Assembly: GCA_016938735.1 (NCBI GenBank)
Contig: JAFGUB010000037.1
Coordinates: 1 to 64,000 of the forward strand
Origin: Campylobacterales bacterium
GTDB taxonomy: Bacteria; Campylobacterota; Campylobacteria; Campylobacterales; Sulfurimonadaceae
Direction: 5' to 3'
Length of the DNA stretch: 64,000 bases
Numbering within the stretch: position 1 is the stretch's first letter; each line of letters starts with the position of its first letter. The notes under the pieces were generated by a model. The model worked only from the letters and a program-made list of their open reading frames with translations. It made no database searches and was not told the DNA's origin. This document shows, in pieces, positions 53,060 to 62,197 of this stretch. Made by a program: the position numbers and the translations under genes.

Positions 53060-53121
53060 GTGAACCGAGGCTTTAAGCGCACCGTATGTTAAAATTTCGC
53101 AAATCAATCAGAAGGACTATA

Positions 53122-54318
53122 ATGGAAATGATCGAAACCGCCGAGGGGTTCAAACAAAAGGTAGCCTCCATCAAGAGTGCTCAGGGGTACAAAGATCCGC
53201 TCGCGTTTGGTATCTGCCGCATCGATTTGGGACAACTCAACAGCGACAAGGCGCTGCAGGCCACATTCCCGGTCGTCAACTGGAACGAAAACTTCGGAAG
53301 TGCCGCCATCTTCATTGCAGCCCTTCAAGAGCAAGGTGTCATGATCGACTTTAACGCCAACGAAGTGATCGCCCATGTGAATCTTGCCTTTTTGCAAAGC
53401 TGTCTCAATGCCTTTACTCCTTATGCCGATGAAGCGTACGGCGATGCGCACCGAAATATTCAAGTGGTTTCAACGCTCTATCGTCAAATCAAAGAAGAGG
53501 GGATGCGTGAGGGTGAGTTTCGCGTGGTCTTTATCTTTAATGATGCGCCGTGCCAGAGCGTCGAGGCGACCTATCTCAAGCTCTACGCCCTCTCGCTGGC
53601 CAAAGTAGCGCTGCGCAGCATCAATCTCAACGGTGCCTTCGGTGCTCTGCCCAACGTAGCATGGTCGGGCGGTAAGCCGATTGAGCTGGCGTGGCTGCGT
53701 GAATACGAGATCGATCTCAAGCTATCGGGCGAATACCCGCATATCGATTTTGTCGATAAATTCCCCCGTTTCTTGCAGCACATTATTCCTGCCGACAATA
53801 CCCGCATCCTTGACGCTTCAAAGGTACGTTTCGGTGCCCAACTGCACGCAGGCACGACGGTTATGCCCGGAGCCAGCTACATTAACTTCAATGCAGGTAC
53901 GACCGGCGTGAGTATGGTAGAGGGGCGCATCTCCAGCTCTGCCATCGTGGGCGACGGCTCGGATGTCGGCGGAGGCGCCTCGATTCTAGGCGTACTCAGC
54001 GGTACGGACGGTAATCCGATCAGCATCGGCAAAAACTGTCTGCTTGGGGCCAACTCGGTTTGCGGTATTCCGCTGGGCGATGGATGTATCATTGATGCTG
54101 GTGTGGCGATTTTGGCGGGAACCAAAGTGCGCATTGCGCCTGATCAGCTCGCCAAGATCGCTCTGGCCAATCCTGAAGCCTCTTTAAGCGGGGAGATCTT
54201 CAAGGGTGCGGCCCTTGCAGGACTCAACGGCCTACACTTCCGCCAAAGCTCTACCAACGGTGAAATCACGGCCGGTAGATCGACACGTGAAGTGAAGCTG
54301 AACGCCGAGCTTCACTAA
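53122..54318 (+). CDS. dapD: 2,3,4,5-tetrahydropyridine-2,6-dicarboxylate N-succinyltransferase
   Basis: DapD succinylates tetrahydrodipicolinate in lysine and meso-diaminopimelate synthesis. The 398-residue protein is of the long Campylobacterota type (about 390-400 residues, against 275 in E. coli). The C-terminal third is a left-handed beta-helix (SYINFNAGTTGVSMVEGRI, SDVGGGASILGVLSG). ATG 53122 follows GAAGGA; the longer frame from 53086 crosses the candidate promoter. Confidence 0.92.
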   Translation: MEMIETAEGFKQKVASIKSAQGYKDPLAFGICRIDLGQLNSDKALQATFPVVNWNENFGSAAIFIAALQEQGVMIDFNANEVIAHVNLAFLQSCLNAFTPYADEAYGDAHRNIQVVSTLYRQIKEEGMREGEFRVVFIFNDAPCQSVEATYLKLYALSLAKVALRSINLNGAFGALPNVAWSGGKPIELAWLREYEIDLKLSGEYPHIDFVDKFPRFLQHIIPADNTRILDASKVRFGAQLHAGTTVMPGASYINFNAGTTGVSMVEGRISSSAIVGDGSDVGGGASILGVLSGTDGNPISIGKNCLLGANSVCGIPLGDGCIIDAGVAILAGTKVRIAPDQLAKIALANPEASLSGEIFKGAALAGLNGLHFRQSSTNGEITAGRSTREVKLNAELH

Positions 54319-54351: not shown

Positions 54352-54357
54352 TATAAT
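54352..54357 (+). promoter_or_regulatory. Candidate -10 for the mini-rod gene
   Basis: TATAAT 20 bases before ATG 54378, with AAGGAG (54367-54372) between. T-rich runs upstream (54321-54339) may end dapD transcription and also serve as the AT-rich -35 substitute. Confidence 0.55.
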
Positions 54358-54377
54358 GGGCTTTCAAGGAGTCCATT

Positions 54378-54596
54378 ATGACGATCTCATCCAATCTCTC
54401 TTCCATTCAAAACAGTCAATATGCGATGAACCAGAGTGCGCAGCGCGTCGCACAAGCCGGTCGTGACCCATCCCAAACCGATCTAAGCAAAGAGCTTACC
54501 GATCAGATGATGATCGAAAAAAGCGTTCAAAGCAACGCTTCTGTAATCAAAACGGCTGATGAGATGCTCGGCTCTCTGCTGGACACTAAGGCGTAA
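54378..54596 (+). CDS. Miniature flagellar rod/hook-like protein
   Basis: A 72-residue protein. Its first 25 residues (NLSSIQNSQYAMNQSAQRVA) look like the N-terminal helix of rod proteins, and its last 40 (MMIEKSVQSNASVIKTADEMLGSLL, shown in part) match the C-terminal helix shared by FlgB, FlgC, FlgG and FlgE. The whole middle of a normal rod protein is missing. It may be an accessory rod or export subunit, or a regulator that mimics a rod substrate. Strong promoter and AAGGAG ribosome site support that it is expressed. It overlaps the facing NlpC gene end by 11 bases. Confidence 0.7.
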   Translation: MTISSNLSSIQNSQYAMNQSAQRVAQAGRDPSQTDLSKELTDQMMIEKSVQSNASVIKTADEMLGSLLDTKA

Positions 54597-55899
54597 GCGT
54601 CACGATATTCATGCTTTCAAGGTGCAAAAGCAGTCTCCCATTTGGATTATAATCGCTTAAGTTGTTCCCTAACTGAAATGTTGAGATGATGCTTTTGCCG
54701 ACAATATATCTCCCTTCAAGTGTATTTTTTCGTGTTTTAATCCCCCATGTATCATGAAAAACGATCACTTCATTATTGTACACCCCCAAATAGAGCATGA
54801 CGTGACCGGGCTTGTACAAAAGTGTCTTAAAGGGGTGTGCCTCTTCGCGTATACGCCGTAACTTCTCCTCATCGGAAAGCCCCTTGAGTACGATGACCTT
54901 TCCAATACGCGATTGCTCCAAAGAGTTGCGCGGTAGCCATAGACCAAAAGCGGCAAAATAGTCGCGCAGCATCGAAGAGCAGTCCCGACGCCCCAGCAAG
55001 CCACCCCAGCCATACTGCTCTTGAAGCAACTGATTGCCTATCATGTTTAGATGTTTCGCATCCATAGGAAGCGGCTGTTGCGCGCCAATGGTAGAAGGGG
55101 CGACGGCAGGCACAAAACGGGCACTGCCGTCACTCTCTCTTTGGGCCGTCAAAAGCTCTATACGTCCGGGTTGTATTTCACGGTGGATCGGAAGCATCGT
55201 GCCGATGCTACTGTGCAACAGATAGCGTCCGCCGCTCGCCTCTTTGAGCGGATAATCCTCTTGTGTAATATACAATTGAGAGAGACCTTCCCAATACTTT
55301 TTCTGTGTCGGGCCTACCAAGGCGATATCGCTTACATGTAACCATCCTGAAGCGTAAGCGGTAAAGACGTAGATCCAATCTCCGTCTTGGCTGTAATGAG
55401 AGAGATAGAGAGGTTCATTGGCATGAACGCCGCTGTTTTGATTGTAGTCAAAAGGGAACCCCTCTCCCGCCTCTTTGGGATCGCGAAAGAGGGGATCGTG
55501 GGTAGGAAAATTCCTTAGATCCGATGAACGTACCGTCATGCCGTAAGCACGCAGTGTATCAAAAGCATCAAAGTCGGAGAGACGACGCATCTGTTCAAAC
55601 CACTCCGGTCCTAAAGGTTGCAAGACAGGACCGTAGATGACCCCTTTTTGATAGCTTCGATAGGGCCACATAATGGCATCCAAGCCTTGCGGCGCTTGCG
55701 TGTACCGCCAAGGTTCGAACCACTTGAGCTTCAAGGTTGATGGGACCACACCCTCTTCTTTGTCAGATCGATACGCGGACGTATAGGCTTCAAAACTTTG
55801 CGGCAGACGAATCAAATCGTCAGGCACTTCTACCTTTTTGGCCGTGTAGGCACAACCACTTAAAAACCCTAACATCGCTAAGACGATCAGACGGTACAA
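54586..55899 (-). CDS. NlpC/P60 peptidoglycan endopeptidase lipoprotein with SH3 domains
   Basis: A 437-residue exported protein with lipobox LSGC (Cys 16), an N-NLPC helical cap, SH3b domains in the middle (about 150-270) and a C-terminal NlpC/P60 (C40) peptidase. RRDCSS near 303 holds the nucleophile Cys, GHVMLYLG the His and FHDTWG a third polar residue. It should cut stem peptides of peptidoglycan. It ends inside the mini-rod gene from the other strand. One palindrome (55332) lies inside as Leu-His-Val. Confidence 0.88.
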   Translation of the reverse strand: MYRLIVLAMLGFLSGCAYTAKKVEVPDDLIRLPQSFEAYTSAYRSDKEEGVVPSTLKLKWFEPWRYTQAPQGLDAIMWPYRSYQKGVIYGPVLQPLGPEWFEQMRRLSDFDAFDTLRAYGMTVRSSDLRNFPTHDPLFRDPKEAGEGFPFDYNQNSGVHANEPLYLSHYSQDGDWIYVFTAYASGWLHVSDIALVGPTQKKYWEGLSQLYITQEDYPLKEASGGRYLLHSSIGTMLPIHREIQPGRIELLTAQRESDGSARFVPAVAPSTIGAQQPLPMDAKHLNMIGNQLLQEQYGWGGLLGRRDCSSMLRDYFAAFGLWLPRNSLEQSRIGKVIVLKGLSDEEKLRRIREEAHPFKTLLYKPGHVMLYLGVYNNEVIVFHDTWGIKTRKNTLEGRYIVGKSIISTFQLGNNLSDYNPNGRLLLHLESMNIVTLTP

Positions 55900-60470: not shown

Positions 60471-61259
60471 TTAGCGCTTGAGTCCGTTGGTGGTTTGCAG
60501 CATTTCATCACTGGTGGTGATCACTTTTGAGTTGGCGTCATACGCCCGCTGTCCCGTGATCAGGTCGGTCAGCTCCACCACCAATTGGACGTTACTCAGC
60601 TCTACAAAACCCTGACGCAGCAGCCCAAGACCGTCTACGCCGGGCGTACCGTCTACGGGCTGGCCTGAGCTGTCGGTCTCCACAAAAAGGTTGTCTCCCA
60701 TCGCGTGCAAGCCCGCAGGGTTGATGAAGTTGGTCGTGAGCACCTGCCCGATCTGCGTGGCCTGCGCCTGCCCCGGCTGAGTGACGGTCACGATACCGTC
60801 GGTGCCGATGCTGATGTAGGTGGCATCTTCGGGAATCACGATTTCAGGTACCAAGCGGTAGCCGTCAGAGTTGACCAAAGTACCGTTTTCATCGCGTTTA
60901 AAAGCACCGTTGCGGCTGTAAACTTCTGTACCGTCAGGCAGTTCAAGCTTGAAAAAGCCGCGTCCGGTAATCGCAATGTCGAGGTCGTTATCGGTCTGCT
61001 TGAGGCTTCCGGCGGAGAAGATCTTGTTGATCGCGGTAGGCCGTACCCCAAGACCCACTTCGATACCGGTAGGTGATTTGGTGGTATCGCTGGTCGAAGT
61101 GCCTGCATACTCCATCACCCGATACATCAAGTCGGCAAACTCCGCGCGGGATTTTTTATACCCTATGGTATTGACGTTGGCGATGTTGTTGGCGGTGGTG
61201 TCGATTTGGGTTTGCATCCCCAGCATTCCGGTGGAGCTGGTATAGAGTGACTGCATCAT
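60471..61259 (-). CDS. flgG: Flagellar distal rod protein FlgG
   Basis: FlgG builds the distal rod of the flagellar basal body. The 262-residue protein has the N-terminal rod helix (LYTSSTGMLGMQTQIDTTANNIANVNT, in part), ITGRGFF near 102 and the C-terminal helix ITGQRAYDANSKVITTSDEML. It follows its paralogue flgF after 3 bases. Confidence 0.95.
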   Translation of the reverse strand: MMQSLYTSSTGMLGMQTQIDTTANNIANVNTIGYKKSRAEFADLMYRVMEYAGTSTSDTTKSPTGIEVGLGVRPTAINKIFSAGSLKQTDNDLDIAITGRGFFKLELPDGTEVYSRNGAFKRDENGTLVNSDGYRLVPEIVIPEDATYISIGTDGIVTVTQPGQAQATQIGQVLTTNFINPAGLHAMGDNLFVETDSSGQPVDGTPGVDGLGLLRQGFVELSNVQLVVELTDLITGQRAYDANSKVITTSDEMLQTTNGLKR

Positions 61260-61262
61260 GGC

Positions 61263-62084
61263 TTATCCTTTTTTGGAGAGTTTTTCTACGGCGTCTTTGT
61301 TCATGTCGTTCATTTGTGAATCCATCGCTTTTTGGTACATGCCCACCAAGCGGTTGGCTTCGATCATGGCGACCATCTCGTTGATCGGATTGACGTTGCT
61401 TTTTTCGACAAATCCTTGAAGCACCAAGCCGCTCTCTTCGCTTACATGTAAGATTTCGAGTGATTCGGGTTTATAGAGGTTGGCACCCTCTTTGACCAGA
61501 TTTTGCAGGGTTTCGGGACGTACGATCATCAGTTTGCTGCCGGCGACGAGCTGCGCATTTCCGGGAATGCTGATGTAAAACTGTCCGTTTTTATCGGTTT
61601 CGACAATGGCGTCTTCATTATTGAAGCGGATGGTACTTTTGGCTTCAAATCCATCATTGGAGAGCACTTCAAACCCCTCTTTGGTCACGAGCACGCCGTC
61701 ATCATTTAGCTTGAACGAGCCGTCTTGCGTGAGGCGTATCCCCTGTGGAGTATTGACGACAAAAAAGTGACCGCTGCCGCCTAATGCAAAATCGAAGGTG
61801 TTGTCCGTTTTGGCCAGATTACCCAAACGAAAATCGGTGTAGCGCTCCGTAATCTGCGGCACGCGGTCCATTGCACGGTTGTAAAACTGCGCCCCCTCAA
61901 CCGTCTGATTCTCCAAAGGGAGTTCGTCACGCGCTGTTTTGTATAGACGCAAAAAGTCGCCGACGATGACGTTGTCGCTTTTAAAACCCAGCGTATTGGT
62001 ATTGGCTAAATTGTTTGCCACCACATCAAGCCGGTTAAACTGCGTCACCATACCGCCGGCTGCCGAGTAGTATCCGCTTTGCAT
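61263..62084 (-). CDS. flgF: Flagellar proximal/distal rod protein FlgF (FlgG2)
   Basis: A 273-residue rod protein, often called FlgG2 or FlgF in this phylum. The N-terminus SGYYSAAGGMVTQFNRLDVV and NNLANTNTLGFK, ALGGSGHFFV near 98 and the C-terminal helix (MVAMIEANRLVGMYQKAM) are clear. ATG 62084 with GGAGG ahead is preferred to the longer frame. A sigma-54 promoter lies 34 bases upstream. One palindrome (61442) lies inside as Leu-His-Val. Confidence 0.9.
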   Translation of the reverse strand: MQSGYYSAAGGMVTQFNRLDVVANNLANTNTLGFKSDNVIVGDFLRLYKTARDELPLENQTVEGAQFYNRAMDRVPQITERYTDFRLGNLAKTDNTFDFALGGSGHFFVVNTPQGIRLTQDGSFKLNDDGVLVTKEGFEVLSNDGFEAKSTIRFNNEDAIVETDKNGQFYISIPGNAQLVAGSKLMIVRPETLQNLVKEGANLYKPESLEILHVSEESGLVLQGFVEKSNVNPINEMVAMIEANRLVGMYQKAMDSQMNDMNKDAVEKLSKKG

Positions 62085-62117
62085 ATCACGCCTCCGGATA
62101 TTGATTTGGAGTATAAA

Positions 62118-62134
62118 AGCAATTGGTGTTCCAA
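62118..62134 (-). promoter_or_regulatory. Sigma-54 promoter of flgF-flgG
   Basis: On the minus strand TTGGAACACCAATTGCT has GG and GC separated by exactly 10 bases, the -24/-12 signature of RpoN. Rod genes of Campylobacterota are known to be RpoN/FlgR-dependent. Transcription would start near 62107, 23 bases before the flgF ATG. Confidence 0.7.
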
Positions 62135-62197
62135 TCCCAAGAAAAGCCTTCCATTGGTTATTTTGGTACACCTAAGCAATATTTTAAAATATTTCGG

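Follow-up and report, generated by a model that had tools for sequence, protein, structure and literature searches.

The window analysed here, i.e. the whole stretch of 64,000 nucleotides at positions 1 to 64,000 of contig JAFGUB010000037.1 from a Campylobacterales bacterium of the Sulfurimonadaceae, contains a short open reading frame between a dapD homologue and a convergent NlpC/SH3-like gene, and the 72-residue product of this frame is referred to as the mini in the following. The gene names dapD, NlpC/SH3-like, flgG and flgF, and likewise lexA-like, purU, leuB and leuD for further neighbours, are our own presumptive assignments. The features of the locus are:

53086 to 54318, plus strand: dapD homologue, the upstream neighbour, conserved in the family loci
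54291 to 54316, plus strand: terminator-like hairpin followed by TTTTTT at the end of dapD (one found against 0.5 expected in shuffled sequences)
54352 to 54357, plus strand: TATAAT, putative sigma-70-type -10 box with no consensus -35, recognized by motif enrichment in the family minis
54366 to 54371, plus strand: ribosome-binding site AAGGAG, 6 nt 5' of the ATG, read directly from the sequence
54378 to 54596, plus strand: mini axial-type protein of 72 aa (stop codon included in the coordinates), from its match to Pfam PF06429 and its family homologues
54384 to 54458, plus strand: codons of the predicted N-terminal helix, residues 3-27 (AlphaFold2 model; alignment with 101-aa orthologues)
54483 to 54590, plus strand: codons of the predicted C-terminal D0 helix, residues 36-71 (AlphaFold2 model; Flg_bbr_C match)
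54586 to 55899, minus strand: NlpC/SH3-like gene, convergent neighbour, its 3' end overlapping that of the mini by 11 nt
60471 to 61259, minus strand: flgG, distal rod protein, with the gate motif FADLM
61263 to 62171, minus strand: flgF open frame, the true start of which is probably the ATG at 62084, as read from the sequence
62119 to 62133, minus strand: TGGAACACCAATTGC, sigma-54-type promoter before flgF-flgG; TGGAACN5TTGC has no other exact match in the window

The ATG at 54378 opens a frame of 72 codons with a good ribosome-binding site, and an upstream in-frame stop permits an extension by seven codons at most (open frame of 79). Flg_bbr_C (PF06429) was the sole Pfam match of the window copy (28.9 bits against a curated cut-off of 23, residues 32-69); neither Flg_bb_rod (PF00460) nor any other Pfam family matched its N-terminal half, and FliE (PF02049) was absent from its matches up to E 10. 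NCBIfam and PDB sequence searches with this copy returned mainly the C-termini of FlgE and FlgG, and the scores stayed below the NCBIfam equivalog cut-offs for FlgB, FlgC, FlgE, FlgF and FlgG, both for the window copy (best 30.4 bits against 469) and for the orthologue L038 (best 26.8 bits against 400). Within the same genome, the next-best matches to the mini had E values of 3.9e-4 and above and lay in frames of 263-628 aa. The N-terminal half of the window copy was identified by alignment to orthologues of 101-102 aa, which bear the ANNVANVNTDGF rod/hook signature. The first-pass annotation, which had proposed a rod-like flagellar protein of 72 residues and had named a lack of the rod signature in alignments as speaking against it, is borne out by the Flg_bbr_C match above the cut-off and by the signature in the aligned orthologues.

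In a family sample of 101 Sulfurimonadaceae genomes, the window's own included, a short homologue was present in at least 67 (66 fetched loci and the window), and these short proteins separate from weaker matches in long FlgE-type frames of mostly 590-1036 aa. Sixty-one of the 67 extracted members are 101 or 102 aa long, spread over 13 genera and mostly found at one locus. Their usual form reads SSNVSSLxAxQTxMNxNANNVANVNTDGFVP - linker - SQTDLxKExxDQ...NVxAIKTQDEMLGSLLDIKA, that is, a rod/hook N-terminal helix with ANNxANxNTxGF, a short beta-hairpin and a Flg_bbr_C helix. At E <= 0.1, Flg_bbr_C was matched by 40 of 41 full-length members and Flg_bb_rod by 15 of 41; L038 scored 22.3 bits against Flg_bbr_C, slightly under the cut-off of 23. 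Two of the 67 are internally shortened, the window copy and a copy of 71 aa in genome G021. Compared with the usual family member, the window copy has lost signature, linker and hairpin altogether, and its N-terminal helix (residues 3-27) is a remnant of the D0 N-helix without ANNxANxNTxGF, the C-terminal D0 helix being the part present in every form of the mini. A DapD tree places G021 in a supported group with two genomes whose copies are 101 aa long, away from the genome of the window, and hence the two shortenings are separate.

The ratio dN/dS was 0.02-0.15 in the six closest mini pairs (dS < 0.8), with a median of 0.21 across 160 pairs with dS < 1.5. Since the six closest pairs have low ratios and a short homologue recurs in 67 of the 101 genomes of the family, the mini is beyond chance, and the reading frame at 54378-54596 is a real gene under selection; a chance ORF or gene fragment was rejected on the selection signal and the conserved locus. 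If the mini were a remnant of a duplicated flgE or flgG gene, decaying or neutral, this would agree with the at least two separate shortenings, the patchy presence and a few pairs at dS of about 0.84 with dN/dS of 0.5-0.6; however, the closest pairs, the median over all 160 and the constancy of length and locus across 13 genera largely refute such an origin, which we regard as highly improbable. An origin from phages or plasmids was likewise rejected: the phage sequences searched with the mini gave no match, no listed plasmid record spans 80% of the query, and the listed plasmid matches fall in FlgE genes or unannotated places.

AlphaFold2 modelled the full-length form with a helix at residues 2-24, a hairpin at 34-40/46-52 and a second helix at 65-100 (mean pLDDT 76.8, pTM 0.58), and the window copy as two helices, 3-27 and 36-71 (mean pLDDT 81). 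The earlier description of a protein consisting of helices only, with no middle domain, thus applies to the model of the window copy, but not to the usual member with its modelled short beta-hairpin. In VIA-align 93-101 of the 101 residues of a modelled full-length member were overlaid on 17 flagellar entries (rods, hooks, hook-filament and filament-assembly complexes) with an rmsd of 1.5-2.6 A and Z of 10.3-12.9, values to be read with the caveat that helical models can reach Z 13 from arrangement alone. By our own reading of titles and lengths, the overlaid chains are presumably FlgG, FlgF, FlgC/FlgB and FlgE. Outside these entries and the flagellar 3a69 and 5wrh, the best row reached Z 5.9 and was not flagellar. 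Despite the helical caveat the overlay appears to hold, for a wide margin separates the flagellar rows from the lower-scoring unrelated rows, and the sequence points the same way. Foldseek gave a best E of only 4.7e-3 for the full-length model, to a proximal-rod chain, and no significant match for the window copy (best E 0.68). As modelled and aligned, a 101-aa family member corresponds over its whole length to the D0 core of axial rod/hook proteins.

With FlhA taken as the marker for flagella, 79 of the 101 family genomes qualify as FlhA-bearing. Among the matches listed, the mini occurs in 68 of these 79 (the 67 mentioned above and a diverged copy in G037) and in none of the 22 FlhA-less genomes. 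The phylum sample of 397 Campylobacterota genomes included 342 with FlhA and at least 85 with a short mini-type frame, both among the matches listed; all 85 carry FlhA, and none of the 55 FlhA-less genomes is among them. Presence in relatives without flagella, which the first-pass annotation had considered fatal to its idea, was found in neither sample among the matches listed. Out of the 34 genomes without a short homologue in the family search, 27 gave a dapD match; two of these loci are truncated within dapD, and in the flank of the remaining 25, which extends to 1.5 kb at most, no mini was detected (profile E no better than 1.3). In seven FlhA-less genomes (G010, G012, G026, G035, G043, G044, G060) the dapD and NlpC matches end about 55 nt apart or less. 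An independent-pair test on the DapD tree, with 87 genomes having a usable DapD, yielded about 2.8 of 4 supported pairs in agreement and none in disagreement (median p 0.25), the pairs being too few for significance.

Eleven of the 79 FlhA-bearing family genomes have no mini among the matches listed (G002, G017, G019, G020, G030, G031, G055, G067, G076, G084, G091), several of them being incomplete assemblies. The match in G076 (9.3e-7) was taken as FlgE-type, because only long frames were matched there and dapD abuts the NlpC gene. The mini is dispensable in some flagellated lineages. As a separate observation, G055 (genus g10) has an intact FlhA (8.3e-260) though the other sampled members of its genus are FlhA-less, and it has no listed match to the mini query, neither short nor FlgE-type.

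The survey covered the Campylobacterota, supplemented by a pattern scan elsewhere, from which 80 of 283 loci were listed. The 85 listed genomes of the phylum sample fall into 41 Sulfurimonadaceae, 14 of group f2, which we take to be Helicobacteraceae, and 30 of other groups; the latter include group f10, presumably Sulfurospirillum-like, with every one of its 22 listed members that have FlhA. In f2, 13 of the 14 short proteins are 70-86 aa long and resemble the C-terminal half only, the remaining one (L180) being diverged and 93 aa long. When a profile of these short forms was applied to 50 genomes, the short frames listed came from G183, G347 and G311, all of genus g19. Since the profile of the Helicobacteraceae-like short proteins also picks up frames about as long as FlgG and FlgE (about 1e-12 to 1e-14), these proteins are not confidently orthologues, and they may have arisen either by reduction or separately from FlgE/FlgG. 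Many of the C-terminal-only proteins (L179, L181-L192) have a GYxAF..AQSGI-like N-terminus, and a gene we presume to be speA-like comes next in L181, L182 and L188, and not in L185 and L186. The genomes tried that we take to be Campylobacter-like, Arcobacter-like and gastric-Helicobacter-like had no short mini among the matches listed.

Of the 66 family loci fetched, 62 have dapD as their upstream neighbour, on the strand of the mini, and 64 have the NlpC/SH3-like gene on the downstream side in convergent orientation; 62 have both. In 14 further, longer loci (18-19 kb fetched) the lexA-like, purU, leuB and leuD genes follow in nearly all, and after them flgG-flgF in 13. In the window flgG and flgF lie 5.9-7.6 kb downstream of the mini on the opposite strand, where they (60471-62171) adjoin leuD-leuB-like genes. 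The mini had been placed away from other flagellar genes, which stands insofar as it looks like a separate transcription unit, but has to be qualified by flgG-flgF at a distance of about 6 kb in an order kept in 13 of 14 loci. In G037 (L160) the diverged mini is found beside the NlpC gene with another gene upstream and dapD on another contig; this locus is a rearrangement that retained the mini. A second shared locus, unlike the dapD site, was seen in L161 (f10) and L173 (f3, genus g74), in which similar convergent genes, presumably queA-, tatC- and tatB-like, follow the mini. In genus g14 (L038, L042, L059, L064, L092) the dapD-mini intergenic region, folded as single sequences, has a stem-loop just 5' of a -10-like TATACT; its stem sequence varies, its loop is near-constant (CTTAAGG/TTTAAGG), and it is possibly a dapD terminator with a conserved loop.

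An exact TATAAT within 150 nt upstream was found for 31 of 69 Sulfurimonadaceae minis against 11.3 in shuffled sequences, 23 of these boxes being placed between -24 and -35; in other families the excess was slight (11 of 36 against 8.8). A two-hexamer promoter scan did not report the TATAAT of the window, as no fitting -35 accompanies it. Stricter sigma-54 patterns of the TGGAAC-N5-TTGC type were found before none of the 69 Sulfurimonadaceae minis and none of the 36 elsewhere, a very loose GG-N10-GC pattern before 16 of 69 (6.9 in shuffles) and 5 of 36 (2.6), and the sigma-28 core showed no clear excess (17 of 69 against 11.2; 2 of 36 against 4.4). A sigma-54-type site of a related pattern is located upstream of flgF in 12 of 14 loci, the window included, and in the same genome flgE is preceded by the sigma-54-type site TGGAACGCTCTTTGC, while the upstream region of flgB contains another, TGGAACGTCTTTTGC. 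A promoter of its own, as first proposed for the mini, is supported in the form of a promoter-like element, the TATAAT box being enriched upstream of family minis. From these motifs we infer that the mini is under early or separate control, in contrast to the sigma-54 rod and hook genes.

Taken together, it is well supported that the mini belongs to the rod/hook superfamily as an additional member that is linked to flagella and has been reduced to the D0 core. Its genome has fliE (on contig 15), flgB and flgC, which all pass their family cut-offs, as well as flgF, flgG and flgE; the mini as a replacement for FliE, FlgB or FlgC was rejected, as all three genes are present. In our view the mini is most likely, with a probability of about 0.4, a D0-only axial-type protein made early that serves as a minor subunit of the rod base, a role suggested by the fold, the sigma-70-type promoter and the precedent of FlgC. 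It would be transcribed early from the sigma-70 promoter, ahead of the sigma-54 rod and hook genes, and, as has been reported for FlgC, its access to the export gate or entry into it would depend on the N-terminus, not on an FlhB-docking motif. It would then pack beside FliE, FlgB and FlgC as a minor helical-hairpin subunit of the axial base, and may there stabilize or prime the junction of gate and rod. The C-terminal D0 helix would be its working part, and for this reason the lineage of the window could dispense with both hairpin and N-terminal signature.

The export signal bears on this assumption. Together with the sigma-70-type promoter it also concerns the three roles that the first-pass annotation had suggested, namely a plug, an adaptor at the junction of rod and export gate, and a decoy substrate, without favouring any one of them. 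The gate docking motif FxxxPhi was found between residues 5 and 60 in none of 90 full-length minis, 34 of which have it elsewhere (residue 4, 61-73 or 86-94), whereas each of 14 FlgG proteins carries it at residue 40 as FADLM or FSDLM and the counterparts in the same genome are FQQLL in FlgB, FNEVF in FlgC and FADLL in FlgE. According to the portion of the source available, FxxxPhi docks early subunits at FlhB-C and is termed essential for their export, and these subunits are described as lacking chaperones (PMC8983047). For FlgC, secretion was stated in an extract of another study to need residues 6-14, with F49 being needed for assembly and not for secretion (PMC9307174). Since FlgC is secreted independently of F49, loss of the motif need not block export of the mini; the missing motif appears to weaken the case for export without excluding it.

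The main rival to a rod-base subunit is a cytosolic partner, which would pair its D0 helices with unassembled FlgB, FlgC, FlgE, FlgF or FlgG as a chaperone, an anti-polymerization or an export-tuning factor. The lack of FxxxPhi at its usual place, the unchaperoned state described for early subunits (PMC8983047, in part), a promoter of sigma-70 and not sigma-54 type, and shortened forms retaining the C-terminal helix alone would all agree with it; full-length members, however, keep ANNVANVNTDGF and the modelled hairpin like assembled axial subunits, and the secretion of FlgC without its F49 (PMC9307174, in part) also speaks against it, so that we consider it somewhat unlikely. Slightly less probable appears a cytosolic or gate-associated regulator, i.e. 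a D0-only, sigma-70-expressed mimic without docking motif that would pair with D0 helices or occupy the gate. Unlikely, too, and placed below both, is a minor axial subunit that is exported to a more distal site, such as the rod-hook or hook-filament junction, or a protein that is secreted and not retained in the structure: the C-termini of FlgE and FlgG and the ends of FlgK are the closest sequence profiles, and the hook, the hook-filament junction (9go6) and filament-assembly (9u4r) were overlaid with Z 11.0-12.1, yet the promoter is unlike the sigma-54 type of rod and hook genes and no outer domain is present to fit the hook surface.

Among known axial proteins, the full-length mini is close to FlgC and FlgB in having D0 helices and a small beta element; on rod chains of 123-132 residues, presumably FlgB and FlgC by our reading of their lengths, 97-101 residues of the mini model were overlaid (Z 10.3-12.2). 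It differs from both in being about 30 residues shorter and far under their family cut-offs, in its sigma-70-type promoter, in lacking FxxxPhi at the usual place and in occurring alongside separate flgB and flgC genes. With FlgE and FlgG, its best profile matches, the full-length mini shares ANNxANxNTxGF at the N-terminus and the C-terminal helix, but it has no middle domains, and the window copy has no N-terminal signature either. FliE is similarly small and helical without a large outer domain, and the window model weakly resembles a chain of the FliE-containing entry 7cg4 (E 3.5, TM 0.61, not significant); the mini, however, has no Pfam FliE match, and its genome has its own fliE. A further lead was HP1233, presumably a short protein, from the related bacterium H. 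pylori; no short match was listed in the gastric-Helicobacter-like genomes searched. Identity of the two was provisionally rejected, HP1233 being called a putative FlgJ, unclear or hypothetical in the literature; as far as the excerpted source goes, it is a class II flagellar gene annotated as putative FlgJ (PMC2864241).

No description of a D0-only protein in this phylum was found in the open-licence literature searched. A survey of flagellar proteins sought 56 proteins, nearly all with C. jejuni probes, and none of those in the excerpted part is such a D0-only protein (PMC9321776). As the Campylobacter-like genomes have no listed copy, a D0-only part would be missed by parts lists based on Campylobacter. 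We know of no chaperone-like or gate-priming factor for early flagellar substrates, and a regulator of the kind considered above would, if true, be the first. Many swimming Campylobacterota carry the mini, and it was not found in relatives without flagella. A D0-only protein that is conserved, has its own regulation and was not detected in lineages that lost flagella makes a concrete candidate for a flagellar part. Should it prove axial, it would represent a subunit pared down to the helices that line the channel; should it prove cytosolic, it would bear on what keeps the unchaperoned subunits of rod and hook from associating and what sets their order at the export gate.
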